Origin: a virus
IMG/VR virus record: IMGVR_UViG_3300023184_000107
Location: 1 to 64,000 of that record
Direction: 5' to 3' (one strand)
Length of the DNA: 64,000 nucleotides
Shown here: in pieces, positions 26,307 to 39,898 of the stretch
Position numbering within the stretch: position 1 is the first letter of the stretch
Layout of the letters: each line of letters opens with the position of its first letter
Notes under the pieces: generated by a model
Seen by the model: the letters and a program-made list of their open reading frames with translations, nothing else
What the model was told of the DNA's origin: nothing
Database searches by the model: none
Position numbers and translations under genes: made by a program

Positions 26307-26326
26307 AGCTGTAAACGGAGGCATCT

Positions 26327-27843: not shown

Positions 27844-27918
27844 CGGCGATTAGTACAATGGACAGTGCAAGGGTCTTCTAAGCCCTTAATGCTGGTTCGA
27901 TTCCAGCATCGCCGACCA
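27844..27918 (+). tRNA. tRNA-Arg(TCT)
   Basis: Acceptor CGGCGAT/ATCGCCG, anticodon loop CTTCTAA in an AGGGT/GCCCT stem, T-arm GCTGG-TTCGATT-CCAGC, encoded CCA. Reads AGA. Confidence 0.95.
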
Positions 27919-27928
27919 AAATATTGAC

Positions 27929-27957
27929 TTGATTGTGTGTGTCAAACGAGTTATAAT
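27929..27957 (+). promoter_or_regulatory. Rightward promoter
   Basis: ACTTGATT, 17-bp spacer, TATAAT. Confidence 0.8.
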
Positions 27958-27976
27958 TATCTTTTAAAGGAAGAAT

Positions 27977-28174
27977 ATGGCTGGATATACCAAGGAATTC
28001 TTAGTTGATGCCTATGTTAGCAGATACGAAAATGTAACAGTCAATGTGTCACAACTGCGTGAGCAGGCTGTCAAGCACTATGACTTAGTAGGTCGTGATC
28101 AGTTTCGTGTAAGTGCATCACTAGATGCTGCAGAGATCAAGAAATTTAAACTTGCTACTGGACGTAAATCGTAG
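27977..28174 (+). CDS. Hypothetical protein (65 aa)
   Basis: Starts MAGYTKEFLVDAYVSRYENV after AAAGGAAG; basic and helical. Its own promoter precedes it and a second promoter for a small RNA is embedded in its 3' end (28152-28180). Unknown function. Confidence 0.65.
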   Translation: MAGYTKEFLVDAYVSRYENVTVNVSQLREQAVKHYDLVGRDQFRVSASLDAAEIKKFKLATGRKS

Positions 28175-28180
28175 TATAAT
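28152..28180 (+). promoter_or_regulatory. Promoter of structured RNA 1
   Basis: AAATTTAAACTTGCTA, 17-bp spacer, TATAAT; matches the phage consensus and points into the non-coding stretch that follows. Confidence 0.75.
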
Positions 28181-28186
28181 TAGTGT

Positions 28187-28386
28187 TGTTTAGCAGTAGA
28201 CAACATTTTAAAAAGTTGCCAAGGCCATTTGCCGTGGCTAGAATTGTAAATAGGTCAGCAAAGACCACCTGGTCACGTGGTAATTCAGAATAGGTAAAGC
28301 GGCAGACTTTACAGAAATGCCCAACCCATTAATTCCAGGGGTAACTAGTTGACTTAGGTATAGTTCGTTTGACAACTTTTTAAAAT
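28187..28386 (+). ncRNA. Structured RNA 1 (about 200 nt), unknown
   Basis: No ORF. A short hairpin GTTGT/ACAAC near the expected start is followed by a domain closed by a perfect 14-bp stem (ATTTTAAAAAGTTG 28205-28218 with 28373-28386). Inside are GGTC/GACC, ACCAC/GTGGT and GTAAAG/CTTTAC hairpins. A dedicated promoter precedes it. No known RNA family recognised. Confidence 0.6.
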
Positions 28387-28392
28387 ATTGAC

Positions 28393-28421
28393 TTGAATTG
28401 TGTACTAAAACAATTTATAAT
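28393..28421 (+). promoter_or_regulatory. Promoter of structured RNA 2
   Basis: ACTTGAAT, 17-bp spacer, TATAAT; the expected transcription start (about 28428) falls on the first bases of the stem that closes RNA 2. Confidence 0.8.
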
Positions 28422-28425
28422 AATT

Positions 28426-28585
28426 ACTTAGACAGACAGAATAAGACACACCGGCTCTGACCGCAAATATAAAGCTAATACAGAAGCATCAGGTTCGTGT
28501 AAGATTCTCGCAGTGCGTTGTTAGTGTAAAACGAGAGGACTAACATAAAATGAGGATTGCGACCCTCATTACGCTCAGTCTAAGT
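28426..28585 (+). ncRNA. Structured RNA 2 (about 160 nt), unknown
   Basis: Closed by ACTTAGACAGA / TCAGTCTAAGT (10 of 11 paired). Contains ATGAGG/CCTCAT and TTAGT/ACTAA hairpins. No ORF. The following 120 nt (28586-28704) hold further hairpins (TGTTAC/GTAACA) up to tRNA-Glu, so transcript may continue into the tRNA. Confidence 0.6.
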
Positions 28586-28704
28586 ATATTCGGGTGGAAA
28601 GTGGTTTGGCTGCACAAATACTTCCTTAATTGTTACAAACGAAATCGCCTAGTAACAGCCCCGAGCAGGACTACAGGTCAAGAAAATTTAAGTAAAAGTA
28701 ATAA

Positions 28705-28780
28705 GGATCTATCGTCTAACGGTTAGGACGGCACTCTTTCACAGTGCAAACGAGGGGTTCGATTCCCCCTAGATCTACCA
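28705..28780 (+). tRNA. tRNA-Glu(TTC)
   Basis: Acceptor GGATCTA/TAGATCT, loop CTTTCAC in GCACT/AGTGC, T-loop TTCGATT, encoded CCA. Confidence 0.95.
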
Positions 28781-28785
28781 ACAAA

Positions 28786-28797
28786 GACCCTAAGCTG
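28786..28797 (+). repeat. 12-mer GACCCTAAGCTG after tRNA-Glu
   Basis: Exact copy of the phage-wide 12-mer, 5 bp after the tRNA. The following 120 bp to tRNA-Tyr have hairpins (GTGGC/GCCAC) and no gene. Confidence 0.8.
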
Positions 28798-28921
28798 TAG
28801 TGGCTGTTACAGGCCACAGTAAATGCAGGTTACCTGCTGCGGCAGCTTTAAACCATTCTGATGATGGCTCTGGTCAAGCCGAAACCCCAACTAATGCGTT
28901 TACGCTAAGTTGCGGGTAAAT

Positions 28922-29007
28922 GGATGTATATACCGTTAAGGAGGCGGTTCCGGCTGTAACCCGGACGTGGCGACACTCTGTTGGATCGTTCCCAACTGCA
29001 TCCACCA
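28922..29007 (+). tRNA. tRNA-Tyr(GTA)
   Basis: Acceptor GGATGTA/TGCATCC, anticodon loop CTGTAAC in TCCGG/CCGGA, long variable arm as expected for Tyr, encoded CCA. The T-loop is ATCGTTC rather than TTCRANY, an oddity. Confidence 0.85.
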
Positions 29008-29153
29008 TTAATTAAGTATCATCAAGGTAACGTGCTAAGACGTTAGCACTATACGGGTCAAAGCTGCCGGCGACTGATCCTGACATAACTGCATCGGCAT
29101 TGAGCCAGTTTAGCGACTATCTCAGAATTTGCACGATGATACTTAATTAATGG
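29005..29153 (+). ncRNA. CCA-sequestering stem-loop after tRNA-Tyr
   Basis: A 19-bp perfect inverted repeat: CCATTAATTAAGTATCATC (29005-29023) with 29135-29153. The left arm begins with the encoded CCA of tRNA-Tyr. The 111-nt interior has GTGCTAA/TTAGCAC and GCCG/CGGC hairpins. It precedes uvsE. Member of the family at 32103, 33477 and 40323. Confidence 0.65.
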
Positions 29154-29174
29154 TTACAATAAATACCCTACTAT

Positions 29175-30179
29175 ATGCACAGTTTTAACTCAAACATACA
29201 TCGTGCAGGTTTTGCCTGTAAAATTCAAGAATCACACGATGTGGCTATTGCTAAATTTGCAGTTAAAACCACAACCATTACCTGGCTTAATGCCCAAACA
29301 CCAGATCGTGTAGTTGCACGACTGTGGGAACTAATGACCAACAATGTTCAGGCACTGCGTGCTCAGATTGAGTATGTGGGCAGCCTGCCAGTCAATCAAC
29401 GTATGTTTAGACTGAGTGGTGACCTATTGCCAGCTTACAGTCATGACCGCTATATGTGGTTTTACTTTGAGCCAGATGTATTACGCTATCTAGAAAGCAA
29501 CCTATCTGAGATTGGAAACCTAGCCCGCAGTCTTGACGTGCGGCTTAGCTTTCATCCAGGTCAGTTTTGCGTAATGGCATCAGATAGTGCTGAAGTAGTA
29601 GAGCGCTCAATCACGGAATTTGAGTATCACTGTGACATTATTCGCTATATGGGATATGGTCGCAGCTTTCAAGACTTTAAATGCAATGTGCATATTGGTG
29701 GCAAGGCTGGGCCTGATGGTATTCGCCGCGCACTTAAACGACTTAGTCGTGAAGCACACAATTGTTTAACCATTGAAAATGCAGAATACAGTTGGGGTAT
29801 AGAGCACAGTATTGAACTCATGTTTGACTGTGCCCTAGTACTAGACATACATCATCACTGGATTGCCAGTGGCGAGTATATCTGTGCCACAGACGATCGT
29901 GTGCGTGCTGTAACTGAAAGCTGGCGAGGTGTGCGTCCTGTTATACACTACAGTGTTAGCAGAGAAAATGTGTTAGTAGACCATGATGCAGATACACTGC
30001 CTGATCTAGCTGCACTTAAAAGTGCTGGATTTACCAGCACTAAACTTCGTGCACACAGCGACTATTACTGGAACTCAGCAGTTAACGAGTGGGCGGCCAG
30101 CTTTAGTGCTGATGCCGACATAATGTGCGAAGCCAAACAAAAAAATCTTGCTGTACAGCAATTTATTAAATTTATCTAA
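29175..30179 (+). CDS. uvsE: UV damage endonuclease
   Basis: 334 residues; TIM-barrel UvdE family. RLSFHPGQFCVMAS near 125-138, NVHIGGKAG near 167, LTIENAEYSWG near 190 and VLDIHHHWIASGE near 218 supply metal ligands of the fold. It nicks DNA 5' of UV photoproducts and other lesions. Follows the trailing stem-loop of tRNA-Tyr; no strong RBS, and a weak -10 (TACAAT) is at 29155. Confidence 0.92.
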   Translation: MHSFNSNIHRAGFACKIQESHDVAIAKFAVKTTTITWLNAQTPDRVVARLWELMTNNVQALRAQIEYVGSLPVNQRMFRLSGDLLPAYSHDRYMWFYFEPDVLRYLESNLSEIGNLARSLDVRLSFHPGQFCVMASDSAEVVERSITEFEYHCDIIRYMGYGRSFQDFKCNVHIGGKAGPDGIRRALKRLSREAHNCLTIENAEYSWGIEHSIELMFDCALVLDIHHHWIASGEYICATDDRVRAVTESWRGVRPVIHYSVSRENVLVDHDADTLPDLAALKSAGFTSTKLRAHSDYYWNSAVNEWAASFSADADIMCEAKQKNLAVQQFIKFI

Positions 30180-30185
30180 CATAAT

Positions 30186-30262
30186 GCCCTGGTGACGGAA
30201 TAGGTATACGTACTGGTCTTAGAAACCAGGTTCTGGGAGTTCAAGTCTCCCCTAGGGCACCA
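30186..30262 (+). tRNA. tRNA-Leu(TAG) with short variable arm
   Basis: Acceptor GCCCTGG/CTAGGGC, loop CTTAGAA in CTGGT/ACCAG, T-arm GGGAG-TTCAAGT-CTCCC, encoded CCA. The D-arm is Leu-like (GACGGAATAGGTATACG). The variable loop is only GTTCT, whereas bacterial Leu tRNAs carry a long arm. Confidence 0.85.
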
Positions 30263-30276
30263 ACCTCTAAAACAAC

Positions 30277-30501
30277 ATGCAATACAGAAACATAATTACC
30301 CAGATTACTGTAGCAGATACTAACACTAATCCGCTGTACGGGGATTGCGTACGAGTCAGTCTACAAGATGACGGAGATGGGCCATTTGTGGTACTTAAAC
30401 AAAGTGGCCTAGATCACGAACATGAAGTTCGCATCATGTTTGATGAATGGCCTAATATCTGTAAGGCTATCTGTGTACTAAAACATCAACAACTAGGTTA
30501 A
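30277..30501 (+). CDS. Hypothetical protein (74 aa)
   Basis: MQYRNIITQITVADTNTNPL, VSLQDDGDGPFVVLKQSG, then MFDEWPNICKAICVLKHQ. Beta then helix layout. No family recognised. Lies 14 bp after tRNA-Leu without a clear promoter, so probably co-transcribed. Confidence 0.55.
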   Translation: MQYRNIITQITVADTNTNPLYGDCVRVSLQDDGDGPFVVLKQSGLDHEHEVRIMFDEWPNICKAICVLKHQQLG

Positions 30502-30558
30502 ACGACCCGGCTATAACTAGGAGACACTATGCGATTGTAATACTACAAGGAGCATAAA

Positions 30559-30867
30559 GTGAGTAGAACACTTAAAGATCGCCCAAGTCATATTAAACAT
30601 GAGGCTTGGGACAAAGACAGAATTCAGGTTGAGGGTTGGTTTAGATATATAAATCTACCAACAACCAGAACTAAAAAGCGCAGAAAAATAGATACTGAGG
30701 AGCACTGGATGAATACGCCCAGCTGGTGGACCAGAATCATGATGAATAAACCTCAAAGACGTAGCGGATCAATTTGGGAACGTAAAGCAGTTAGAACAGA
30801 TATTTTATATCTATTTGACTTAGATACACCCAGTGTAGGCCGTAAACCCCACCAGTACTACTGGTAA
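30559..30867 (+). CDS. Basic conserved phage protein (102 aa)
   Basis: GTG start after AAGGAG. MSRTLKDRPSHIKHEAWDKD, PTTRTKKRRKIDTEEHWMNT and PSWWTRIMMNKPQRRSG, ending RKPHQYYW. The TKKRK..TExHWM.TPS.WTR.MMN.PQRR pattern occurs in small basic proteins of many phages; role unknown. Confidence 0.7.
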   Translation: MSRTLKDRPSHIKHEAWDKDRIQVEGWFRYINLPTTRTKKRRKIDTEEHWMNTPSWWTRIMMNKPQRRSGSIWERKAVRTDILYLFDLDTPSVGRKPHQYYW

Positions 30868-30884
30868 GTTGCATAAATTTACAC

Positions 30885-30913
30885 TTGTGTTTAGTGCCCT
30901 AAAATGTTATAAT
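30885..30913 (+). promoter_or_regulatory. Rightward promoter before tRNA-Pro
   Basis: AAATTTACACTTGTGT, 17-bp spacer, TATAAT; a type example of the phage consensus. Confidence 0.85.
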
Positions 30914-30943
30914 TTATACTTAGCAGCAACAATTGCTGTTAAT

Positions 30944-31019
30944 CTCTGATTCGGTTAGTGGCTATACCACTTCCTTTGGGAGGAAGATTTCGTGTGTTCG
31001 AGTCACACATCAGAGACCA
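30944..31019 (+). tRNA. tRNA-Pro(TGG)
   Basis: Acceptor CTCTGAT/ATCAGAG, loop TTTGGGA in CTTCC/GGAAG, T-arm GTGTG-TTCGAGT-CACAC, encoded CCA. Confidence 0.95.
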
Positions 31020-31037
31020 CTTCAGAAAGGCTAATCT

Positions 31038-31466
31038 ATGTTAGCAGATAATTTAAAAGTGCTGTTAGCATCAAGTCACAGCCTGTACCTAAAAGCCGCA
31101 AATTTTCACTGGAATGTTGAGGGAGCCTATTTTCCACAGTATCATGAATTCTTTGGCAAGTTTTATGCAGATATTTATGCAACTCAAGACCCTATTGCCG
31201 AATATATCCGTGCACTAGATGTTTATGCACCTGGCAGTCTCTCAAGTTTTAGTGAGCTTACCATTATAGAATGTGTTGTGGGTCAGATGCCTGCCCAGGA
31301 ACAATTTGCGCTGCTATTAGCCGACAGTACAAAGTTGCTAGAGTATCTTAATGCTACATTTACTGTAGCTGTTGCTGAAAATCAGCAAGGTATTGCTAAT
31401 TTTATTGCTGAGCGCATTGATGCAATGCAGAAACATAATTGGATGATTCGCAGTATTTTAAAATGA
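31038..31466 (+). CDS. dps: Dps-like ferritin-family protein
   Basis: 142 residues, four-helix bundle. Ferroxidase motif NFHWNVEGAYFPQYHEFFGK with later DPIAEYIRALDVYAPGSL matches Dps. Dps proteins bind iron and DNA and protect against oxidative damage. Placed between tRNA-Pro and tRNA-Ala, on the same transcript as tRNA-Pro. Confidence 0.85.
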   Translation: MLADNLKVLLASSHSLYLKAANFHWNVEGAYFPQYHEFFGKFYADIYATQDPIAEYIRALDVYAPGSLSSFSELTIIECVVGQMPAQEQFALLLADSTKLLEYLNATFTVAVAENQQGIANFIAERIDAMQKHNWMIRSILK

Positions 31467-31471
31467 TATTT

Positions 31472-31547
31472 GGGGGATTGGTATACTTGGCTAACACATC
31501 TGCTTTGCAAGCAGAAGCAAACGGTTCGAATCCGTTATTCTCCACCA
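31472..31547 (+). tRNA. tRNA-Ala(TGC)
   Basis: Acceptor GGGGGAT/ATTCTCC with the G3-U70 pair required for alanine, loop TTTGCAA in TCTGC/GCAGA, encoded CCA. Confidence 0.95.
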
Positions 31548-31625
31548 AATAATAAGGGTTCTTATGATGCATAAATTTAATTTGACTATTCTACAAACAT
31601 AAGATACCCTTATTCCCTAACACAC

Positions 31626-31649
31626 TAGGGCTTCGGCCCTATTTTTTTT
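31626..31649 (+). terminator. Strong terminator
   Basis: TAGGGC-TTCG-GCCCTA stem with tetraloop, followed by eight T. Confidence 0.95.
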
Positions 31650-31772
31650 ATGATAGAATTTACACCAATTGGTGGTATTCCAGTTGATGGAGTACCAGTA
31701 GTAATCCCTTTTAGCAACTGGCTTGAAGCCGCTAATTGGCCACAGTACACAGATCAGCCGCGAAAAATATAA
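31650..31772 (+). CDS. Possible 40-residue ORF
   Basis: Starts MIEFTPIGGIPVDGVPVVIP at the end of the terminator T-run; no RBS. Composition is protein-like, but expression is doubtful. Confidence 0.3.
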   Translation: MIEFTPIGGIPVDGVPVVIPFSNWLEAANWPQYTDQPRKI

Positions 31773-31773
31773 C

Positions 31774-31802
31774 TTGAAGTTATTGTTTAAACCAGTTATA
31801 AT
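31774..31802 (+). promoter_or_regulatory. Rightward promoter
   Basis: ACTTGAAG, 17-bp spacer, TATAAT. Confidence 0.8.
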
Positions 31803-31823
31803 TATTTTTTAAAGACACAAATC

Positions 31824-32006
31824 ATGAAAATTTGGGAAGCAATTCAGATGCTAGAGCAAATGGATCAAACTAAGGAATGTACTGTAACATTTGGTGCAGA
31901 CAAAATAGCAAAAGTACCACACGTACCACATCGTGAGTGGGTTATCAATCGCGCTGATTGGCTTAATCGTACTCATGGTATGGAAGAAGGACAACAGGTT
32001 CACTAA
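31824..32006 (+). CDS. Hypothetical protein (60 aa)
   Basis: MKIWEAIQMLEQMDQTKECT, then HREWVINRADWLNRTHGMEE. Helix at the N-terminus, strand, helix. Small proteins of this pattern are frequent in phages; unknown role. First gene of a transcript leading into tRNA-Lys. Confidence 0.6.
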   Translation: MKIWEAIQMLEQMDQTKECTVTFGADKIAKVPHVPHREWVINRADWLNRTHGMEEGQQVH

Positions 32007-32028
32007 TGAAAACACGAAAACCTAACAT

Positions 32029-32105
32029 GGATGTATAGCTCAGCGGCTAGCAGCAACCGGCTTTTAACCGGTAGGTCCTGGGTTCAAATCCCAGTGCATC
32101 CACCA
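32029..32105 (+). tRNA. tRNA-Lys(TTT)
   Basis: Acceptor GGATGTA/TGCATCC, loop CTTTTAA in ACCGG/CCGGT, T-arm CTGGG-TTCAAAT-CCCAG, encoded CCA that is also the first triplet of the next stem. Confidence 0.95.
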
Positions 32106-32220
32106 TAGATAAACACATTTAACGGTAAAACAGGATACCTAGCAACTGCATGCAGGGGCTATCCCAAAGAAGTAGGTTACTACCACCGTAAAGCTAGGAA
32201 AATAGTGTGTTTTTCTATGG
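32103..32220 (+). ncRNA. CCA-sequestering stem-loop after tRNA-Lys
   Basis: CCATAGATAAACACA (32103-32117) pairs with TGTGTTTTTCTATGG (32206-32220), 14 of 15 with a T-T mismatch at position 8. Inside, ACGGT/ACCGT and CCTAGC/GCTAGG can pair in an interleaved (pseudoknot) order. Ends 6 bp before tRNA-Gln. Shares closing-stem design with 33477-33557. Confidence 0.7.
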
Positions 32221-32226
32221 TTATAC

Positions 32227-32302
32227 TGCCGAGTCGTCAAGCGGTTAAGACCCTGGATTTTGATTCCAGTATGCGTAGGTTCGAATCCTACTTCGGCTGC
32301 CA
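32227..32302 (+). tRNA. tRNA-Gln(TTG)
   Basis: Stem TGCCGAG/TTCGGCT with an unpaired 1-72, loop TTTTGAT in CTGGA/TCCAG, discriminator G, encoded CCA. Confidence 0.93.
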
Positions 32303-32310
32303 GGATATAT

Positions 32311-32386
32311 TCCTCAGTAGCACAGCGGTAGTTGCACTTGACTGTTAATCAAGTTGTCCGTGGTTCGATCCCACGCTGAGGAGCCA
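32311..32386 (+). tRNA. tRNA-Asn(GTT)
   Basis: Acceptor TCCTCAG/CTGAGGA, loop CTGTTAA in CTTGA/TCAAG, discriminator G, encoded CCA. Confidence 0.95.
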
Positions 32387-32706
32387 GATCTAGTAATTTT
32401 AGACACGATCGTACCATTGTTCGAATCAATGGCAGTTATACGATCACACAGGTAAGCTAGCCTGCATAAACAACCCCATCGTTAATGAGTGGTTTATGAA
32501 ATTAGTATAGATAGCTTCTAGTGCACTAGACGCAATCTATCACAGTTATGAACATTAACTACATTTGTAACTGTGAAAAATAGTAGGTAAATAGGTGGCT
32601 GCTTAGTGGCCGTGATTCCTGAAGGCGTTAACAGCGCTACTACTAAAATGCCTACCAATATTAGTCGGATAGCCAGTTCCGAAAGCAAGGCAGCTTTAAA
32701 CCCTAG
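32387..32706 (+). ncRNA. Non-coding structured spacer
   Basis: 320 bp without a credible ORF. It holds a T-arm-like hairpin (CCATTG-TTCGAAT-CAATGG) nested in GATCGTA/TACGATC, hairpins CAGG/CCTG, CACAGTTA/TAACTGTG and TAGTAG/CTACTA, and palindromes CTAGTGCACTAG and AAACCCTAGGGTTT. Possibly transcribed RNA of unknown role and remnants of tRNA genes. Confidence 0.5.
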
Positions 32707-32757
32707 GGTTTAGATAAACATATAGTAACAGTATGCTTATCTAAACCTTTTATTTTT
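32707..32757 (+). terminator. Terminator-like hairpin before tRNA-Ser(GCT)
   Basis: GGTTTAGATAAACATA pairs with TATGCTTATCTAAACC, then TTTTATTTTTT. It ends one base before the tRNA gene, so it could terminate or act as a processing signal. Confidence 0.7.
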
Positions 32758-32758
32758 T

Positions 32759-32845
32759 GGAAGATGTGCCGCAAGGTGCGGCAAGGGCTTGCTAAGCCCT
32801 CGTTTAGAAATAGGCTGATTGGTTCGATTCCAATATCTTCCGCCA
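32759..32845 (+). tRNA. tRNA-Ser(GCT)
   Basis: Acceptor GGAAGAT/ATCTTCC, loop TTGCTAA in AGGGC/GCCCT, long variable arm, discriminator G, encoded CCA. Confidence 0.95.
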
Positions 32846-32850
32846 GTTAT

Positions 32851-32925
32851 TGCCTTGTAGCTCAGAGGAAGAGCAATCGCTTGATAAGCGATAGGCCGAC
32901 ATTTCAAAATTGTCCGAGGCAACCA
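32851..32925 (+). tRNA. tRNA-Ile(GAT)
   Basis: Acceptor TGCCTTG/CGAGGCA, loop TTGATAA in ATCGC/GCGAT, T-loop TTCAAAA, encoded CCA. Confidence 0.93.
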
Positions 32926-32931
32926 GTTAGC

Positions 32932-33007
32932 GTATCCTTAGCTCAATTGGCAGAGCGCTGGTCTCCAAAACCAGAGGTTCGCGGTTCGAGTCCGTGAGGG
33001 TATGCCA
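32932..33007 (+). tRNA. tRNA-Trp(CCA)
   Basis: Acceptor GTATCCT/AGGGTAT, loop CTCCAAA in CTGGT/ACCAG, T-loop TTCGAGT, discriminator G, encoded CCA. Confidence 0.94.
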
Positions 33008-33029
33008 GAATTCTTTACCAAGGAAAAAA

Positions 33030-33254
33030 ATGAATAGATACGTAGTAGCATACAGCTATCCTAATGATAGTGAAATCTTTCAACAAGAGATACACTCAAC
33101 ATCTAAGAGAGACGCAGCCTTAAAGTATCTTAGCGAATTTCAAGATATAGTTTTTGAGGAAAACCAACTATTAGACATGGAAGATTTTGATCTGTTAGCT
33201 GAACATTGCTGGGATTACTTAGAGGTCAGTATTTCAGTTTTACAGATAGATTAA
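33030..33254 (+). CDS. Hypothetical protein (74 aa)
   Basis: ATG 33030 after AAGGA (MNRYVVAYSYPNDSEIFQQE). Acidic C-terminal half. Stop is immediately followed by the initiator-like tRNA. The fold looks like a beta hairpin followed by helix, as in several phage host-takeover proteins; unknown. Confidence 0.6.
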   Translation: MNRYVVAYSYPNDSEIFQQEIHSTSKRDAALKYLSEFQDIVFEENQLLDMEDFDLLAEHCWDYLEVSISVLQID

Positions 33255-33328
33255 CGCGGGTAGGGAGCTCACCACACCGGTCTCATAAGCCAGGTGCATC
33301 GGCAGTTCGAATCTGTCACCCGCAACCA
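33255..33328 (+). tRNA. tRNA-Met(CAT), initiator-like
   Basis: Acceptor CGCGGGT/ACCCGCA leaves C1 opposite A72, the hallmark of bacterial initiator tRNA, and the ends match E. coli tRNA-fMet (CGCGGG ... CCCGCAACCA). Loop CTCATAA. The anticodon stem (CCGGT/GCCAG) has two of the three G-C pairs typical of initiators. Confidence 0.88.
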
Positions 33329-33387
33329 CTAATCGGTATGGGCCCTAACAGGCATCAACACATACTCCGCATAATCGTAAGCGGTTT

Positions 33388-33479
33388 GGAAAGTAATGCA
33401 GCGGGGTTGGTCCTGCGACTGGCCTTGAAAACCAGGTTCTCTTAACCGGGATGGGGTTCGACTCCTCTGCTTTCCGCCA
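33388..33479 (+). tRNA. tRNA-Ser(TGA)
   Basis: Acceptor GGAAAGT/GCTTTCC, loop CTTGAAA in CTGGC/ACCAG, long variable arm, discriminator G, encoded CCA. Confidence 0.93.
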
Positions 33480-33557
33480 TAGGTAAACATATTGTCTACT
33501 GGTAAATGAGATAATAATGCTCATAATAAAAGTTCCAAACAGTATGTTTTCTTATGG
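33477..33557 (+). ncRNA. CCA-sequestering stem-loop after tRNA-Ser(TGA)
   Basis: CCATAGGTAAACATA (33477-33491) pairs with TATGTTTTCTTATGG (33543-33557): 13 Watson-Crick pairs, one G-T and the same T-T mismatch at position 8 as the element at 32103. Base changes at positions 7 and 14 are compensated between the two. ATGAG/CTCAT hairpin inside. Directly precedes the tmRNA acceptor piece. Confidence 0.7.
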
Positions 33558-33908
33558 TTGTATGAAATAAACAGAAAAGTGTCTTGGACGGGGGTGCGAA
33601 TCCCCCCAGGTCCACCATAAGCATATTAGATACATCGGTGTTATTTAACGGCATCGGTCACTGAGAACTAGTATGTTTCTGATGGGCCTGCATAGTTTCG
33701 ACAGGGCAACAAGTAAACAAGTGGACAGCCCGGCAAAGTAGAAGCCGTTAGGATTAGGGTGACTTTAGTCGCTATACCCATAGTATAGAAAGACGCAGCC
33801 TAGTTGTAGACACAAAAAAAGTAAACGCAAACGACACACAGTTCGCATTAGCTGCCTAAACTCAGCTTAGGGTTTGCCAGGTTCCTCGTAACAGAATACC
33901 TGGCCCGA
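33558..33908 (+). ncRNA. ssrA: Circularly permuted two-piece tmRNA
   Basis: The 3' (acceptor) piece comes first: TTGGAC, T-arm GGGGG-TGCGAAT-CCCCC (33590-33606), CAGGTCC (33607-33613), A, CCA (33615-33617). A 66-nt intervening segment follows, then the 5' (coding) piece from 33684: GGGCCTG, D-loop-like TTTCGACAGGG, a pseudoknot-like region, an A-run, and the tag frame. GGGCCTG pairs fully with CAGGTCC and gives the G3-U70 alanine identity pair. Tag codons 33827-33859 read ANDTQFALAA then TAA, the stop lying in the loop of AGCTG/CAGCT as in E. coli. Piece ends at 33558 and 33908 are estimates. Confidence 0.88.
33618..33683 (+). other. Intervening segment of the permuted tmRNA
   Basis: Segment between mature 3' CCA and mature 5' end, expected to be removed during processing. 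Its flanks pair (CCATAAG ... CTGATGG, with CATA/TATG further in), bringing the two cleavage sites together. Contains the repeated CATCGGT. Confidence 0.75.
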
Positions 33909-33914
33909 TTTTAT

Positions 33915-33988
33915 CTGGGATTGTCAGAGTGTCTATGTAGTAGGCTGCAACCCTTCTTAGGTTGGTTAAAATCCAACATCCCAGTCCA
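33915..33988 (+). tRNA. tRNA-Cys(GCA)
   Basis: Acceptor CTGGGAT/ATCCCAG, loop CTGCAAC, T-arm GTTGG-TTAAAAT-CCAAC, discriminator U73 (cysteine identity) and encoded CCA. The weak D-arm with TATGTAG matches E. coli tRNA-Cys. Confidence 0.88.
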
Positions 33989-34007
33989 TACTTTACAGGA
34001 GATTTCT

Positions 34008-34169
34008 ATGTTTACACCAAAACCACAACCACTGCCAGCTACCGCGCCAAACCCGGATACAGAAACACCTACTGGAAGACAGCTAGATAACAGCCCTATT
34101 CCAGGTATTCCCGCCGCTTACGATAACATTAATCTAAACAATGGTGCAGGCAATCCCAATCATGGTTAA
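34008..34169 (+). CDS. Pro-rich hypothetical protein (53 aa)
   Basis: ATG 34008 after CAGGAGA (MFTPKPQPLPATAPNPDTET). Low complexity, Pro/Asn/Thr-rich, probably disordered. Overlaps the next small ORF. Confidence 0.5.
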   Translation: MFTPKPQPLPATAPNPDTETPTGRQLDNSPIPGIPAAYDNINLNNGAGNPNHG

Positions 34170-34290
34170 GCCAGTAGTGGCTCCAGTATACGTAGGTAAA
34201 CCTACTCCACTTGTACCACCGCCAATTCCTGACACCTCTAGGTATCCTCCAAAAACACCGGTAGTGGTTGACACTACCAGTAACGTATAA
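34162..34290 (+). CDS. Pro/Val-rich small protein (42 aa)
   Basis: MVKPVVAPVYVGKPTPLVPP; overlaps the previous ORF by 8 bp and ends 3 bp before the ClpP-like gene, consistent with an operon. Unknown function. Confidence 0.4.
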   Translation: MVKPVVAPVYVGKPTPLVPPPIPDTSRYPPKTPVVVDTTSNV

Positions 34291-34293
34291 AAT

Positions 34294-34866
34294 ATGGAAA
34301 AAGAAGATATTGAGTTTACAAGTACTAATGGCAGGGTTACTCCTAAAATTACTGCCAGATCTTTTGAATTCTATATCTCTGGATATATCAAGAGTCCTGA
34401 AGAATATACTGATTGGTTTGACACAATCCGTCACTGCACAGAAGATGACACAGTTAAAATCTATATCAATAGTTTTGGTGGGGATATGTTTACTGGTATT
34501 CAGTTTATGCGTGTCTTGGCAGAAACTAAGGCATTAGTAATATGTTCGGTAGAAGGCGCTTGTATGAGTGCTGCTACCATGATCTTTCTGTGTGCAGATC
34601 GCTTTGAGGTAACACCACATAGTATGTTTATGTTCCACAACTATAGTGGCGGAACATATGGCAAAGGTGGAGAAATGTTTGGACAAATTCAGCATGAGCG
34701 AAAGTGGTCTGAACAGCTACTAAATGAAATTTACGAAGACTTTTTAACTAAATCAGAGATTAAGAGTCTGCTAGACAACAAAGATATGTGGATGGATGTT
34801 GATGAAGTTATCCTAAGAATGGAAGAACGCGACAAACTATCTAAAGAAAAACAACCAGTAGAGTAG
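34294..34866 (+). CDS. clpP: ClpP-like serine protease
   Basis: 190 residues, ClpP/crotonase fold. FYISGYIKSPEEYTDWFDTI, INSFGGDMFTGIQFMRV (oxyanion-type GG), GACMSAATMIFLCADRF with the nucleophile Ser, and MFMFHNYSGG with the His. The Asp of the triad is less certain (DKDMWMDVDE region). ClpP degrades tmRNA-tagged proteins in bacteria, so its position next to a tmRNA is suggestive. Its last codons overlap tRNA-Met at 34857. Confidence 0.85.
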   Translation: MEKEDIEFTSTNGRVTPKITARSFEFYISGYIKSPEEYTDWFDTIRHCTEDDTVKIYINSFGGDMFTGIQFMRVLAETKALVICSVEGACMSAATMIFLCADRFEVTPHSMFMFHNYSGGTYGKGGEMFGQIQHERKWSEQLLNEIYEDFLTKSEIKSLLDNKDMWMDVDEVILRMEERDKLSKEKQPVE

Positions 34867-34928
34867 CCTAACGGTCAGGCAGCAGCTTCATACGCTGTTA
34901 TAAGTGTGTTCGACTCACACCTTTACTA
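34857..34928 (+). tRNA. tRNA-Met or Ile2 (CAT)
   Basis: Acceptor AGTAGAG/CTTTACT, loop TTCATAC in GCAGC/GCTGT, T-arm GTGTG-TTCGACT-CACAC. CCA not encoded (CCC follows). The 5' end overlaps the last 10 bp of the ClpP-like gene. Elongator Met or lysidine-modified Ile cannot be decided. Confidence 0.85.
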
Positions 34929-34932
34929 CCCT

Positions 34933-35007
34933 CTCTCCTTAGTACAATGGATAGTACACGTGGCTACGAACCACGAAATGTGTGTTCGATTCATGCAGGA
35001 GAGGCCA
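34933..35007 (+). tRNA. tRNA-Arg(ACG)
   Basis: Acceptor CTCTCCT/AGGAGAG, loop CTACGAA in CGTGG/CCACG, discriminator G, encoded CCA. A34 would be read as inosine by the host deaminase. Confidence 0.93.
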
Positions 35008-35030
35008 TATATAAGTAGTAGTATTTATAT

Positions 35031-35327
35031 ATGGCTAAATCATTTTTAAAACTAAAAGACCCTAAGCTGGGCATGCTTGATAAGATCACATTTGGTAAAC
35101 TGCAGGATTGCAGAGTATGTGATGTTATTGAAGATCACTACAATTATCTTATCTGGGCAGAGCAGCAGGGATATGTAAAGTTTCAGCAGACGGTAATTGA
35201 CGCAATTCAGGAGCATGCCGGATTTGAACACAGTCAGCCAGCGCTAGAGATAGACGAAGTTGACGTACACCTGAAAAAACAAATTTTTGGCAGCTATGTG
35301 TTACATGAAGATGACGTTCCTTTTTAA
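35031..35327 (+). CDS. Hypothetical protein, ExoX-C/DUF3820-like
   Basis: 98 residues. KLGMLDKITFGKLQDCRVCD then YNYLIWAEQQG follows the mxFGKYKGkxxxDVxxxxPxYLxWxxxxG pattern of the small domain found C-terminal in ExoX-like exonucleases. An exact GACCCTAAGCTG (35058) encodes part of DPKLG. Function unknown. Confidence 0.6.
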   Translation: MAKSFLKLKDPKLGMLDKITFGKLQDCRVCDVIEDHYNYLIWAEQQGYVKFQQTVIDAIQEHAGFEHSQPALEIDEVDVHLKKQIFGSYVLHEDDVPF

Positions 35328-35341
35328 CTAAACCTAGCTAC

Positions 35342-35947
35342 ATGACTATCTCAGACGCACAAGCAGTAGAAATGTATCCACAAGATGCACGCTGGTACAA
35401 TAAGCTATACCTGTCTTGCTTGCTTGGCTATAGGTGTGGCATATCTATGATACCAGAGACTGGTAGCTGGATAGTGCGTCCCATCATTAACCTAGACGGC
35501 ATGGGCCGAAACGCTGTAATAAAACATTTTGATGAGGGCACAGTTATTGAGCCGGACTTATTCTACTGTGAGGTATTTACTGGCAGGCACATCACCATGG
35601 ACTTTGTCAGAGTGGACGGCTGCTGGACACAACAGCATGTATTTGAGGGATTTAATACTGCTAGTAACCTAGTACAGTTTACTAAGTGGGTACAGGTTGA
35701 CTATGCGTACGCAATCCCAGATTTTTTACAAACAGTAACATCCAACCACATCAATATTGAAATTAAGGGTGATTGCATAATAGAGGTACACCTAAGACCT
35801 AACTCGGATCCTATCATGTACACTAACTTCTGGCCAGTCTGGTCTGAGACTCAGCAGCCACCAATGCCTAACTATAAAATGGTTGCTGACAGGGATAATC
35901 ACAACAACATGGGTAGACTGGGATTCTTTGTGCCAGATAACGAGTGA
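35342..35947 (+). CDS. Uncharacterised protein (201 aa)
   Basis: MTISDAQAVEMYPQDARWYN at the N-terminus; segments RCGISMIPETGSWIVRPIIN, YCEVFTGRHITMDFVRV and VHLRPNSDPI. The layout (clamped beta strands with ITMDF and WIVRPI) resembles an ATP-grasp-like or glycan-acting protein seen in other phages, but no catalytic motif is sure. Stop codon lies within tRNA-His. Confidence 0.6.
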   Translation: MTISDAQAVEMYPQDARWYNKLYLSCLLGYRCGISMIPETGSWIVRPIINLDGMGRNAVIKHFDEGTVIEPDLFYCEVFTGRHITMDFVRVDGCWTQQHVFEGFNTASNLVQFTKWVQVDYAYAIPDFLQTVTSNHINIEIKGDCIIEVHLRPNSDPIMYTNFWPVWSETQQPPMPNYKMVADRDNHNNMGRLGFFVPDNE

Positions 35948-36017
35948 GCGTAGCTTAATGGTAGAGCCGTGGGTTGTGATCCCGCTGACCTTGGTTCGAT
36001 TCCAAGCGTGCACCCCA
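35944..36017 (+). tRNA. tRNA-His(GTG)
   Basis: Acceptor GTGAGCG/CGTGCAC (one mismatch), loop TTGTGAT in GTGGG/CCCGC, C73 and encoded CCA. Base -1 is A, not the usual G. Overlaps the stop of the preceding gene. Confidence 0.9.
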
Positions 36018-36021
36018 ATTT

Positions 36022-36092
36022 GCGTGTGTAGTTCAATGGTAGAATTGGACGTTGCCAACGTCCTGACCCGAGTTCGATCCTCGGCACCCGCA
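36022..36092 (+). tRNA. tRNA-Gly(GCC)
   Basis: Acceptor GCGTGTG/CACCCGC, loop TTGCCAA in GGACG/CGTCC, T-arm CCGAG-TTCGATC-CTCGG. CCA not encoded. Confidence 0.93.
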
Positions 36093-36112
36093 CAATATCA
36101 ATAAATATCTAC

Positions 36113-36141
36113 TTGAAACAGCTGTTTAAAATTGTTATAAT
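36113..36141 (+). promoter_or_regulatory. Rightward promoter, leaderless gene
   Basis: ACTTGAAA, 17-bp spacer, TATAAT; ATG 36148 is six bases after the -10. Confidence 0.8.
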
Positions 36142-36147
36142 TACAGC

Positions 36148-36372
36148 ATGAAACACAAATTCAACGTCAAACCACTTAGTCCAGAAATGGGCACTCCACG
36201 ACCGACTACCCGACCACCAAGTCTGGTAACCGCTGGTGGCAGTACTGCCTTAAAATCCATTCCTAAATATACTGGTACTGAAATGATTGGTATCTCAATT
36301 ATTCACAAAAGCTGTTTACAGCCAATTTTTAGCAAACAAGCAGCCACAGATGCTGCTAATATGCGTCGTTAA
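36148..36372 (+). CDS. Hypothetical protein (74 aa), leaderless
   Basis: MKHKFNVKPLSPEMGTPRPT, disordered Pro-rich start, then STALKSIPKYTGTEMIGISI and IHKSCLQPIFSKQAA. The TEMIGIAxMHKSxxxPVF pattern is widespread in short phage proteins of unknown function. Confidence 0.65.
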   Translation: MKHKFNVKPLSPEMGTPRPTTRPPSLVTAGGSTALKSIPKYTGTEMIGISIIHKSCLQPIFSKQAATDAANMRR

Positions 36373-36375
36373 TTT

Positions 36376-36449
36376 GCAGGATTGGTATAGGGGATGTGCC
36401 CTAGTTTTCCAAACTATAGAGAAGGGTTCGATTCCCTTATCCTGCTCCA
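36376..36449 (+). tRNA. tRNA-Gly(TCC)
   Basis: Acceptor GCAGGAT/ATCCTGC, loop TTTCCAA in CTAGT/ACTAT, discriminator T, encoded CCA. Confidence 0.92.
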
Positions 36450-36456
36450 GTAAAAT

Positions 36457-36531
36457 GCATCCTTAGCTCAGTGGTAGAGCGGCTCCTTTACACGGAGCGG
36501 GTCGGCAGTTCAAGTCTGTCAGGATGTACCA
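36457..36531 (+). tRNA. tRNA-Val(TAC)
   Basis: Acceptor GCATCCT/AGGATGT, loop TTTACAC in GCTCC/GGAGC, discriminator A, encoded CCA. Confidence 0.95.
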
Positions 36532-36536
36532 AATAC

Positions 36537-36612
36537 ACACCTTTAGCTGATGTGGTCATAGCGGCGGTTTGAAGAACCGTTGAAGTTGGTTCGATTCCAA
36601 CAGGGTGTACCA
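36537..36612 (+). tRNA. tRNA-Phe(GAA)
   Basis: Acceptor ACACCTT/AGGGTGT, loop TTGAAGA in GCGGT/ACCGT, discriminator A, encoded CCA. Confidence 0.93.
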
Positions 36613-36616
36613 ATTT

Positions 36617-36720
36617 GCGGCACGAAGTGAGAGGGGCGAAGGTAGTCCTAAACCGTTTAGAGTGAAGGCGTCCACTTTGCGGTATCTTTGTCTTGGTTCG
36701 ACTCCAAGGTGCTCGCTCCA
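36617..36720 (+). tRNA. tRNA-like element of 104 nt, anticodon undetermined
   Basis: Ends fit a tRNA: GCGGCAC pairs with GTGC(T)CGC with a bulged T, T-arm CTTGG-TTCGACT-CCAAG, then TCCA. The D-region (GAGAGGGGCGAAGG) is Ser-like. No proper anticodon arm with U33 can be drawn; the middle holds CTAAA/TTTAG and AGAGTG/CACTTT hairpins. It may be a decayed or unusual class II tRNA, or a tRNA mimic. Confidence 0.5.
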
Positions 36721-36726
36721 AATTTA

Positions 36727-36804
36727 GGAATATTAGCTTAGCCGGCCTAAAGCGCTACCCTGTCACGGTAGAGATCAGGGGTTCAAATCTCCTATATTCC
36801 GCCA
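36727..36804 (+). tRNA. tRNA-Asp(GTC)
   Basis: Acceptor GGAATAT/ATATTCC, loop CTGTCAC in CTACC/GGTAG, discriminator G, encoded CCA. Confidence 0.95.
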
Positions 36805-36812
36805 AACATTAC

Positions 36813-36837
36813 AGCCGCCTTGAGCGGCTATTTTTAT
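36813..36837 (+). terminator. Terminator after tRNA-Asp
   Basis: AGCCGC-CTTGA-GCGGCT stem followed by ATTTTTATT. Confidence 0.9.
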
Positions 36838-36872
36838 TACAGTGTACTTTCTGCACTAAAACAAATTTACAC

Positions 36873-36901
36873 TTGAATCTTGTACTAAATCTTGGTATAA
36901 T
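36873..36901 (+). promoter_or_regulatory. Rightward promoter
   Basis: AAATTTACACTTGAAT, 17-bp spacer, TATAAT. Confidence 0.85.
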
Positions 36902-36926
36902 TATATCTCACAAACAAACTATTATT

Positions 36927-37313
36927 ATGGAACAATACGCCTTTCCTTTTCCCACATCAATGCCTGGCGCTAAAAATACTGGCATTATTCAAACATATCG
37001 CGGTCAACTGCTGGATAAAGCAAAGCTGTTGAACGTACATACTGTCCACATTTTTAATAAACTGTATCCAAAAGGAGGACTTACTGTAGCTTTCCGTAAA
37101 GTTAGTGAGTATAAATCAGGTAAAATGGTTGAGTGTGCCGTAGCCACTTGCTCTGATCAGGATATATTTAGTAAGAAAACTGGCACTACTATTGCTCTTG
37201 AGAAGTTTTTTGATGGGAATACTATTGAATTACCTCTACTTGCCTATTATGATTTGTGTGATATGAATCATGTTGTTAAACGTGCATTTACTGCACTCTA
37301 TAAGTCACATTAA
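36927..37313 (+). CDS. Conserved hypothetical, related to 17080
   Basis: 128 residues from ATG 36927 (MEQYAFPFPTSMPGAKNTGI), chosen because the promoter lies just before it; the longer ORF crosses tRNA-Asp. The C-terminal half (VECAVATCSDQDIFSKKTGT, ALEKFFDGNTIELPL) matches the 17080 protein. Function unknown. Confidence 0.65.
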   Translation: MEQYAFPFPTSMPGAKNTGIIQTYRGQLLDKAKLLNVHTVHIFNKLYPKGGLTVAFRKVSEYKSGKMVECAVATCSDQDIFSKKTGTTIALEKFFDGNTIELPLLAYYDLCDMNHVVKRAFTALYKSH

Positions 37314-37318
37314 TATAC

Positions 37319-37401
37319 GCGGGCATGGTGGAACGGTAGACACAGGAGACTTAAAATCTCCCGCCTTGCGCGTCCCGGTTCGAATCCGGGTGCCCGTACC
37401 A
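37319..37401 (+). tRNA. tRNA-Leu(TAA)
   Basis: Acceptor GCGGGCA/TGCCCGT, loop CTTAAAA in GGAGA/TCTCC, long variable arm, discriminator A, encoded CCA. Confidence 0.95.
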
Positions 37402-37408
37402 TAAACTA

Positions 37409-37484
37409 GCGAGTCTAGCATAACGGTTAATGCCGCAAACTCATAATTTGTAAAATAGGGGTTCGATTCCCTTGGCTCGCACCA
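37409..37484 (+). tRNA. tRNA-Met or Ile2 (CAT), third CAT tRNA
   Basis: Acceptor GCGAGTC/GGCTCGC, loop CTCATAA in GCAAA/TTTGT, encoded CCA. Together with 33255 and 34857 this makes three CAT tRNAs, probably initiator, elongator Met and lysidine Ile. Confidence 0.9.
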
Positions 37485-37503
37485 CATTTTAAAAAAGGAA
37501 AAC

Positions 37504-37794
37504 ATGAAAATTACATTTGGCAAAGTTCCACAGGAACAACAAAATCAAGACGAATCTTTTGTAGCAGAAAACCGCACTGGCAATACAGCTGAGTACTACT
37601 ATGTGCTGGATGTTAATCAAGAAAAAGACGGTAGTGGTACGTTTACAATTAGGGATACCTGCAACAGGTATATGCCTTTTGACTTTGAACAGCTGGATGA
37701 ATTGTATGAGGTTATTGATACCCTAAAAACTTTCAGAGATGACACCCTGAAATTTGAAAACCACTGGAAAACAGTTTGGGGCTTTAGCCACTAA
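37504..37794 (+). CDS. Hypothetical protein (96 aa)
   Basis: MKITFGKVPQEQQNQDESFV, then YYYVLDVNQEKDGSGTFTIR and PFDFEQLDELYEVIDTLKTF. Beta strands then helix. RBS AAAGGAAA. The ending FDFEQLDELxxVI recalls DNA-binding-like phage proteins, but no family is sure. Confidence 0.6.
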   Translation: MKITFGKVPQEQQNQDESFVAENRTGNTAEYYYVLDVNQEKDGSGTFTIRDTCNRYMPFDFEQLDELYEVIDTLKTFRDDTLKFENHWKTVWGFSH

Positions 37795-37810
37795 TCCACC
37801 TGTCAATAAA

Positions 37811-38977
37811 ATGAGATTTCATATACTAGGCATACCCCATACAATATCAAACAAAGATTATGTGGCCTGTGCATTTACACAAAAAGTAGTTAAATTTTGT
37901 GCTATGATGCAGGGTCGAGGGCACACTCTTATACACTACGGCCATGATCGTAGTGATGTTTACTGTGATGAAAATGTTGCAGTAACTAGCGATTTAACAC
38001 TTAATGCAGCTTATGGAGATCATGACTGGCATGCTAATGCATTTAAGTATGATCTAAACGATATTGCATATAAAACTTTCTACGAAAATGCTATACGTGA
38101 AATAAGATTACGTAAACGTGCCAATGACTTCTTACTGTGTTTTTGGGGTTGGGGACATAAAGCCATTGCTGATGCACATCCAGATATGATAATTGTAGAA
38201 CCAGGTATTGGTTATGCAAGTGAAATATTTGCTACTTACAGGGTATTTGAAAGTCAAAGTATAATGGCTGCACATTTTGGCTTACCAGCAGTACAAACTC
38301 CAGGTAAGTTTAGTTGGTATGATGCAGTAATTCCCAATTACTTTGATGTTAATGACTTTGATTACAATGAACAAAAAGATGACTACTTTTTATACCTAGG
38401 CAGAATTGGTGGGCATAAAGGTACAGATATTGCTATACAAGCTACAGCAGCTATTGGTGCTAAATTAAAAATAGCTGGTCAAGGTAATATATTAAATATG
38501 GGATATAGTACTATACCTGACCACGTAGAAGTAATTGGATATGCTGATCTTGAAACAAGACGACAGCTAATGAGTCGAGCACGTGGTCAGTTTGTGTTAA
38601 CTCAGTATGGAGAACCATTTGGTGGTGTTCAAATTGAGAGTATGCTAAGTGGTACTCCAGTTATTAGTAGTGATTGGGCCTGTTTTGGTGAATTAAATTT
38701 ACATAACATAACTGGTTACCGTTGCAGAACATTTGAGCACATTACTTGGGCAGCCAATAATATTAATCGTATTAATCCTAAAAATTGCAGGGATTGGGGT
38801 GCTAATTTTCTATTTGATAAAGTAGCACCCATGTACGAAGAATATTTTTATAGTATACTAAACATTTATGGTAAAAAAGGTTGGTATGAAATTAATCCAT
38901 CTCGTACTGAACTTGATTGGTTAACTCGCAAATATCCAGCACACCCTAACAAAAATGACGAAACTAAAGCTGCTTGA
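37811..38977 (+). CDS. Glycosyltransferase, GT-B (GT4-like)
   Basis: 388 residues from ATG 37811. C-terminal half carries the nucleotide-sugar binding features of GT4: FLYLGRIGGHKGTDIAIQA, KLKIAGQG, then TQYGEPFGGVQIESMLSGTP with the E(x7)E motif (EPFGGVQIE) and VISSDWACFGE. The N-terminal half has LCFWGWGHKAIADAHPDM. May decorate DNA, virion proteins or host glycans. Works perhaps with the epimerase at 23246. Confidence 0.9.
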   Translation: MRFHILGIPHTISNKDYVACAFTQKVVKFCAMMQGRGHTLIHYGHDRSDVYCDENVAVTSDLTLNAAYGDHDWHANAFKYDLNDIAYKTFYENAIREIRLRKRANDFLLCFWGWGHKAIADAHPDMIIVEPGIGYASEIFATYRVFESQSIMAAHFGLPAVQTPGKFSWYDAVIPNYFDVNDFDYNEQKDDYFLYLGRIGGHKGTDIAIQATAAIGAKLKIAGQGNILNMGYSTIPDHVEVIGYADLETRRQLMSRARGQFVLTQYGEPFGGVQIESMLSGTPVISSDWACFGELNLHNITGYRCRTFEHITWAANNINRINPKNCRDWGANFLFDKVAPMYEEYFYSILNIYGKKGWYEINPSRTELDWLTRKYPAHPNKNDETKAA

Positions 38978-39224
38978 GGCATCACCACATAATCCCTTTA
39001 GCAAAATTATTAATCTAATACCTTGGACCTCAACTGTAGTGACCACAGAGTTATTAGATAGTATTGCACTTGTGCTAACAACAGCACAGCCAAAACCAAC
39101 TCAAAATATTAATCACTATATTTTGAAATCTCTATATTACCTACATGAACTAGGTTATGTAGAAATTAGTGCCCTAAAAATGGACACTGCTGAGGGTAAA
39201 TTTTACATAATAAAAAGGATTTAA
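38955..39224 (+). CDS. Hypothetical protein (89 aa)
   Basis: MTKLKLLEASPHNPFSKIIN; winged-helix-like C-terminus (ILKSLYYLHELGYVEISALK then GKFYIIKR). Overlaps the glycosyltransferase end by 23 bp. Possibly a small DNA-binding regulator. Confidence 0.55.
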   Translation: MTKLKLLEASPHNPFSKIINLIPWTSTVVTTELLDSIALVLTTAQPKPTQNINHYILKSLYYLHELGYVEISALKMDTAEGKFYIIKRI

Positions 39225-39620
39225 ATGGCACAGAATAAAACCAGTAAAGGCCAAGAGGGCTATTATAGTCGCTATAAGGCTAACAAGACTTGGGAAGTCA
39301 ACCGTAAACGTAAACTTGAGCGCACGCTAAAAGCTCAACCAGATAACCTACAGGTAAAAACAGCCTTAAAATCTATTGTTTATAGACGTAGAATTCCTGG
39401 TACACGTCCTTGGAGTGCAAGCTGGATTCGCTTAGCAAAGCTGTTTAAACTATTTACAGGTCGTTTTGATCCTGCAATTATGTCTGCTAATGCCGACATA
39501 TCTAGGGCTGCCATGCAGAAACCTGGGCCTAAAACATTGCAAAAGTTAAACAATCCAGTAATGGCTGACAAGAACTTCTTTACTCTGTCTAGCAGGATCT
39601 ACAAAGGTCCAAGTAAATGA
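39225..39620 (+). CDS. Basic hypothetical protein (131 aa)
   Basis: Strongly basic (KTWEVNRKRKLERTLKAQPD, RRRIPGTRPWSASWIRL); no known domain. Starts directly after the previous stop. Could bind nucleic acid. Confidence 0.6.
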   Translation: MAQNKTSKGQEGYYSRYKANKTWEVNRKRKLERTLKAQPDNLQVKTALKSIVYRRRIPGTRPWSASWIRLAKLFKLFTGRFDPAIMSANADISRAAMQKPGPKTLQKLNNPVMADKNFFTLSSRIYKGPSK

Positions 39621-39859
39621 CGCTATTAACACTGTATTGTATATTTGCACTTACTACAGCTATAGTGTCTATTTACGAATTACTGATACCAGTAATGAAG
39701 GCTCAGCAAAAACCCATTGATAATAAGATCTTGTTAATCACAACATTTTTTGTTATCAATGTTATAATCGCCCCACTAGTATTCTTAAGTTGCATCGTGC
39801 CAGCTATGGCAGAGAGATTTAGAGAAGCACTTGATGTGGGACTGTTTCCAAAGGCATAA
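39617..39859 (+). CDS. Two-TM membrane protein (80 aa)
   Basis: TM helices at about 2-24 (LLTLYCIFALTTAIVSIYEL) and 38-63 (KILLITTFFVINVIIAPLVF). ATGA overlap with the gene before. Unknown; a holin-like role is possible but it lies far from the endolysin. Confidence 0.6.
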   Translation: MTLLTLYCIFALTTAIVSIYELLIPVMKAQQKPIDNKILLITTFFVINVIIAPLVFLSCIVPAMAERFREALDVGLFPKA

Positions 39860-39869
39860 AAATTTACAC

Positions 39870-39898
39870 TTGTTATTAGAACTAAATCGCTGTATAAT
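39870..39898 (+). promoter_or_regulatory. Rightward promoter
   Basis: AAATTTACACTTGTTA, 17-bp spacer, TATAAT. Confidence 0.85.

Follow-up and report, generated by a model that had tools for sequence, protein, structure and literature searches.

Two-piece tmRNAs derive from one precursor, which tRNA-processing enzymes cut. The RNA is then aminoacylated with alanine, and SmpB delivers it to stalled ribosomes; this pathway is established (PMC9004378; PMC11915505). The methylophage Melnitz carries a two-piece ssrA gene, and 53 unique two-piece tmRNAs, nearly all aquatic, were reported among 18,146 phage genomes (PMC9004378, 2022). A later study lists 79 phage tmRNA sequences and is the source of the RF04321 model (PMC11915505, 2025), and huge phages with tmRNA and SmpB have been described (PMC7162821). 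The record of the Stenotrophomonas phage Marzo already annotates a tmRNA feature. A preliminary description of the DNA analyzed here held that no well-described permuted tmRNA was available from a phage; the studies of 2022 and 2025 and the annotated Stenotrophomonas phage records show that this was wrong. A claim to the first permuted tmRNA in a phage is ruled out by this literature together with the Marzo record. The phage two-piece tmRNA is thus already known, and the new parts are the relatives and the neighbours of a gene in a T5-like phage. The two-piece tmRNA is thereby extended to T5-like phages, with the gene under selection there.

The permuted tmRNA gene and its tRNA array

The window is the whole analyzed stretch of 64,000 nucleotides. 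It belongs to a 67,650-base (67.65-kb) record that is a fragment of a T5-like phage. Membership among the T5-like phages (relatives of Demerecviridae) is indicated by the T5-type polymerase and head genes; the T5-type PHROG matches comprise a protease/major head fusion, a terminase, a DnaB-like helicase, a polymerase and an SbcC-like subunit. The polymerase is 48% identical to those of T5-group phages over 98–99% of its length. The source phage shares its head protein (55%) and polymerase (79%) with a relative of 124 kb (G004).

Rfam covariance models and ARAGORN identify positions 33556–33914 (+ strand) of the window as a circularly permuted, two-piece tmRNA gene. RF04321 (permuted tmRNA) matches 33556–33859 over its full length (1–213) with 110.5 bits (E=1.1e-20; Rfam gathering score 47 bits), and RF01850 (beta_tmRNA) matches 33486–33926 with 93.7 bits (E=4.5e-27), above its gathering cut-off of 84 bits. 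ARAGORN independently calls a permuted tmRNA (tmRNA*) at the same locus. A phage-encoded permuted tmRNA had been proposed in the preliminary description, together with a covariance-model search as a check; the proposal is borne out by the three calls, and both models align in the permuted order. Re-reading of the bases upheld the details given there, namely an acceptor half (T-arm, CAGGTCC, A and CCA, 33590–33617) upstream of the half with the 5' end and the tag (from 33684), a 7-bp acceptor with G3-U70, the D-loop TTTCGACAGGG, and the tag ANDTQFALAA with its stop codon in a hairpin loop. Chance similarity and a pseudogene are ruled out by the covariance-model scores and the compensatory changes described below. 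The features of the locus are as follows.

27844–40325, + strand: tRNA array with 24 tRNAs called by ARAGORN and 2 more, covering all 20 amino acids (ARAGORN, Rfam, by eye)
~33255–33328, + strand: tRNA with a CAT anticodon, missed by ARAGORN (seen by Rfam or by eye)
33388–33475, + strand: Ser-type tRNA (TGA anticodon), missed by ARAGORN (seen by Rfam or by eye)
33556–33617, + strand: acceptor piece, with an inter-piece helix strand (GGTTGT..., AGTGTCTT), T-arm, CAGGTCC, A73 and encoded CCA (RF04321 alignment; two-piece fold)
33590–33606, + strand: T-arm GGGGG-TGCGAAT-CCCCC, with G at loop position 55 where the Rfam consensus has U (sequence reading and RF04321 alignment)
33607–33613, + strand: 3' acceptor strand CAGGTCC (sequence reading)
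33614, + strand: A73 (sequence reading)
33615–33617, + strand: encoded CCA, the end of the acceptor piece (sequence reading)
33618–33683, + strand: spacer of 66 nt, predicted to be excised as in known two-piece tmRNAs
33684–33914, + strand: coding (mRNA-like) piece (Rfam, ARAGORN, fold), its 3' end putatively set at the 5' end of tRNA-Cys
33684–33690, + strand: 5' acceptor strand GGGCCTG (sequence reading)
33827–33859, + strand: tag ANDTQFALAA (33827–33856) and stop TAA, read as GCA AAC GAC ACA CAG TTC GCA TTA GCT GCC TAA
33850–33867, + strand: stop hairpin AGCTG-CCTAAACT-CAGCT, with the stop codon in the loop (fold)
33915–33988, + strand: tRNA-Cys(GCA), its 5' end abutting the tmRNA 3' end (ARAGORN)

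The array also contains genes for a UvdE-type UV endonuclease (29175–30179), a ferritin-like protein (31038–31466) and a glycosyltransferase (37754–38977).

The gene runs from ~33556 to ~33914. Its acceptor stem is fully paired (7/7), includes G3-U70 and is followed by A73 and CCA. When the two pieces are folded together, the acceptor stem, the T-stem and two inter-piece helices are recovered at -39.8 kcal/mol. Downstream of GGGCCTG, the coding piece contains the D-loop, the tag frame, the stop hairpin and a pseudoknot-like 3' stem (GCCAGG...CCTGGC). The intervening spacer is able to form an 11-bp hairpin. The 3' terminal hairpin of the RF01850 type aligns weakly here, and because tRNA-Cys lies directly behind the tmRNA, tRNA processing probably makes the 3' end. 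ARAGORN places the tag start (VDTKKVN...) too far upstream; in relatives the tag opens with A-N-D..., at the GCA equivalent to that at 33827.

The T-loop, UGCGAAU, departs from the consensus UUCGANU, which is a consensus feature and not a defining one. The G at position 55 counts against a working tmRNA, but the same G is common to many viral permuted tmRNAs. By T-arm pattern matches, TGCGAAT or TGCGATT occurs in about half of 169 of them.

Conservation and distribution

A polymerase search returned 68 viral loci, of which the 44 larger records were examined for tmRNA. A permuted tmRNA is present in 19 of these 44 T5-like records (18 with RF04321 over the cut-off, and G062 when the locus was scanned alone); many of the remaining ones are fragments and may stop short of the tmRNA locus. 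The gene is kept in relatives at ~72–84% DNA polymerase identity, including records of 124 kb and 128 kb.

Ten distinct tRNA-like core sequences were compared, comprising the polymerase-selected relatives that could be parsed by script, plus L320 and L321, which were reached via the neighbouring ClpP-like gene. Their acceptor and T stems show 100% pairing, a value that is partly set by construction, as stem extraction demanded at least 6/7 acceptor pairs; the Rfam alignments of L393, L394, L396 and L400 place the same stems independently of that demand. Compensatory changes occur at 6 of the 12 acceptor and T-stem pairs in these 10 sequences, against a shuffle mean of 2.0 (0/500 shuffles), and G3-U70 is invariant in all of them. 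The tags of the relatives keep the A-N-D start and mostly the -LAA end; ANDTQFALAA itself is found in L236, and other relatives have AND...-type tags. On these comparative sequence grounds, the tmRNA gene of T5-like phages is real, kept by evolution and under selection.

In one relative, L407 (reverse complement 973–1556; G062:C1 near 25665–26445), the spacer between the pieces measures 577 nt and is filled by the gene of a 183-aa HNH endonuclease. The overlap of its stop codon with the coding piece takes in the first 7 nt of the latter. Even so, the acceptor retains 7/7 pairs (CTACTCC/GGGGTAG), and the tag reads ANDSEYRLAA. Because the spacer would be cut out anyway, a mobile gene lodged in it may do no harm. 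As far as we checked, an HNH endonuclease gene within a tmRNA spacer is new.

Among viruses in general, permuted tmRNA genes occur on many more than 100 contigs. In IMG/VR, a scan with a T-arm pattern gave at least 120 stretches, most of which are permuted tmRNAs by ARAGORN, and the combination of the shared T-arm frame and the acceptor CAGGTCC is present in at least 120 viral stretches. A scan for the CAGGTCC acceptor in 84,980 species genomes of bacteria and archaea, confined to one strict pattern with a frame that agrees with the Rfam consensus for bacteria, gave 26 matches, which are 25 one-piece tmRNAs and one tRNA-Ala, and no permuted tmRNA. Within what we checked, the occurrence of CAGGTCC in viral permuted tmRNAs and in none of the scanned cellular ones is new, and this distribution hints at a possible viral tmRNA lineage.

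The same data bear on whether the phage gene could be an unused host ssrA captured by recombination; ssrA frequently serves as an integration site. Imprecise excision from ssrA is a known event in prophages, taken up in PMC9004378, and speaks for such a capture. The gene is nevertheless complete and lies inside a tRNA array, its stems show compensatory changes, it is retained across diverged phages, and its acceptor recurs in no permuted tmRNA of the scanned species genomes. An unused passenger is therefore extremely unlikely.

Several viral permuted tmRNAs encode long tags of 27–31 aa (e.g. ANADTFDFSAMSFTGNTVRGAANESRFALAA), compared with the usual ~10 aa (L063, L067, L087, L149, L151, L153, L169, L174, L177, L178, L183, L190, L198, L204, L231, L232 and L234). 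Since 48% of the codon differences in the long tags are synonymous, against 21% expected, the long tag is conserved as protein. Further long-tag groups are L018/L170/L225, L038/L104/L209 and L085/L161/L185/L218. Permuted tmRNAs are also present in Stenotrophomonas and Xanthomonas phages (L408, 1474–1848; L409, 1473–1923), and the record of Xanthomonas phage X1 leaves its tmRNA unannotated. Stenotrophomonas and Xanthomonas are gammaproteobacteria with a one-piece tmRNA, so the phage and host forms would differ.

A ClpP-like gene next to the tmRNA

A protein-coding gene follows downstream of the tmRNA.

34294–34866, + strand: ClpP-like serine protease of 190 aa (PF00574, 47.7 bits against a cut-off of 20.2 bits; phrog_1827, E=1.5e-60)

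The Ser, His and Asp of its catalytic triad align with those of solved ClpP chains. The protein is assigned to the ClpP-like family (PF00574) only, as TIGR00493 scores 22.4 bits against an NCBIfam equivalog cut-off of 308.6. In 10 of the 11 ClpP-bearing T5-like records, the gene shares the strand of the tmRNA and lies 239–515 bp downstream of it, as measured between matched stretches. As far as could be checked, this linkage in T5-like relatives is new.

The arrangement raises the possibility that tmRNA and protease act as a pair, in which the protease subunits would use the host ClpX or ClpA to destroy and recycle tagged unfinished proteins. Besides the close spacing, two observations point this way: in three ~170-kb phages in which no T5-type polymerase was detected, ClpP lies 2.1–2.4 kb downstream of a permuted tmRNA; and in BF23 (T5 genus), whose scanned 30-kb region holds tRNAs and no tmRNA, the Clp gene sits by the lysis genes. 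Against the pairing, the T5-like cases share one ancestor, the tmRNA occurs without a ClpP-like gene in G003, G004 and G053 (records of up to 128 kb), and the nearest ClpP is at least 13 kb from the tmRNA in 12 other records. Furthermore, the score of the protein is far under the NCBIfam cut-offs that define true ClpP, related proteins of the ClpP-like kind are proteases of head maturation, and a search of 11 records for a ClpX/ClpA-type ATPase (PF07724) gave none. We therefore regard a tag-and-degrade pair as possible but rather doubtful. If the link were functional, the tag and a portion of the protease recognizing it would both be phage-encoded, and the two genes would offer a direct way to ask whether ribosome rescue serves the phage itself while it takes over the host. 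In a broader and, in our view, unlikely scenario, phages would keep their own permuted-tmRNA lineage (GGGCCTG/CAGGTCC, often with the T-loop UGCGAAU), separate from all host copies; in T5-like phages, this tmRNA and the ClpP-like protease would be coupled into a unit for rescue and degradation under viral control.

Proposed function and comparison with known systems

The locus is very probably a working ssrA (tmRNA) gene, permuted and of the betaproteobacterial type, in the tRNA array of a T5-like phage; from the tmRNA type and the tag, the host may be guessed to be a betaproteobacterium. Because all determinants are present, we infer that processing, charging and SmpB delivery would proceed as in known two-piece tmRNAs. 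Host tRNA-processing enzymes would cut the array transcript to release the acceptor piece, with its terminal CCA at 33615–33617, and the coding piece, whose first base would be 33684; the 7-bp acceptor stem and P2-like helices would hold the two together. The host alanyl-tRNA synthetase would then charge the tmRNA through G3-U70. No SmpB was found in the 67.65-kb record, which counts against this account, though the record is a fragment; for this reason it is the host SmpB that would carry the phage tmRNA to stalled ribosomes. The two ends, the use of the CCA and the charging are predictions from the sequence, a further point against the account. Ribosomes would be freed during infection, and the added ANDTQFALAA would mark the partial protein for ClpXP-type proteolysis. 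The preliminary description suggested that the phage tmRNA could take the place of the host's or alter the tags that ClpXP sees; as the tag ends in an ordinary -ALAA, there is no sign that it steers away from the host ClpXP.

A tmRNA in a phage might instead act as a decoy, titrating host SmpB or alanyl-tRNA synthetase and so blocking host trans-translation. This has been proposed for the tag-less tmRNA of phage DS6A, and such a molecule inhibits the endogenous tmRNA (PMC4131195; PMC11915505). The DS6A molecule, however, consists of the tRNA-like part only, whereas the tag frame, the stop hairpin and the 3' structure are all kept here, and A-N-D...LAA tags, which a decoy does not need, are kept across the relatives. 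Because the tag is kept, a decoy role is very unlikely. For the preferred reading of a working tmRNA, the gain to the phage would be a steady supply of ribosome rescue at a time when mRNA is being cleaved and the host no longer transcribes its ssrA. Rescue during host transcription shutdown is the likely benefit; a coupled protease is possible and less supported.

The tmRNAs of the Bxz1-group mycobacteriophages, Wildcat and Bacillus phage G are one-piece, unpermuted and linear. They resemble the present gene in being phage ssrA genes (PMC4131195). The tmRNAs of the Menderavirus members Marzo and IME-SM1 (Stenotrophomonas phages) and of Xanthomonas phage X1 are permuted, and that of Marzo lies between tRNA genes. 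These phages are unrelated to the source phage and have gammaproteobacterial hosts, identity is only ~76% over ~80 nt, and the Marzo tag ends in -RIAA. The genes of Melnitz and the pelagimyophages (PMC9004378) are likewise phage-encoded permuted ssrA genes with a tag, found by ARAGORN in aquatic phages. Melnitz, however, is a myophage of the T4-like kind, and its gene is of alphaproteobacterial type and under a glutamine riboswitch, whereas the present gene is of betaproteobacterial type and lies within the tRNA array of a T5-like phage. With the betaproteobacterial permuted tmRNA (RF01850; merged model RF04321, PMC11915505) the present gene shares the gene order, G3-U70, the AND...ALAA type of tag, the stop codon in a hairpin loop and the 3' stem. 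It differs from the betaproteobacterial consensus in its acceptor (GGGCCTG/CAGGTCC in place of GGGGGTG/CACCTCC), in its T-loop (TGCGAAT in place of TTCGATT), and in a 3' terminal hairpin that aligns weakly, with tRNA-Cys following directly behind the gene.
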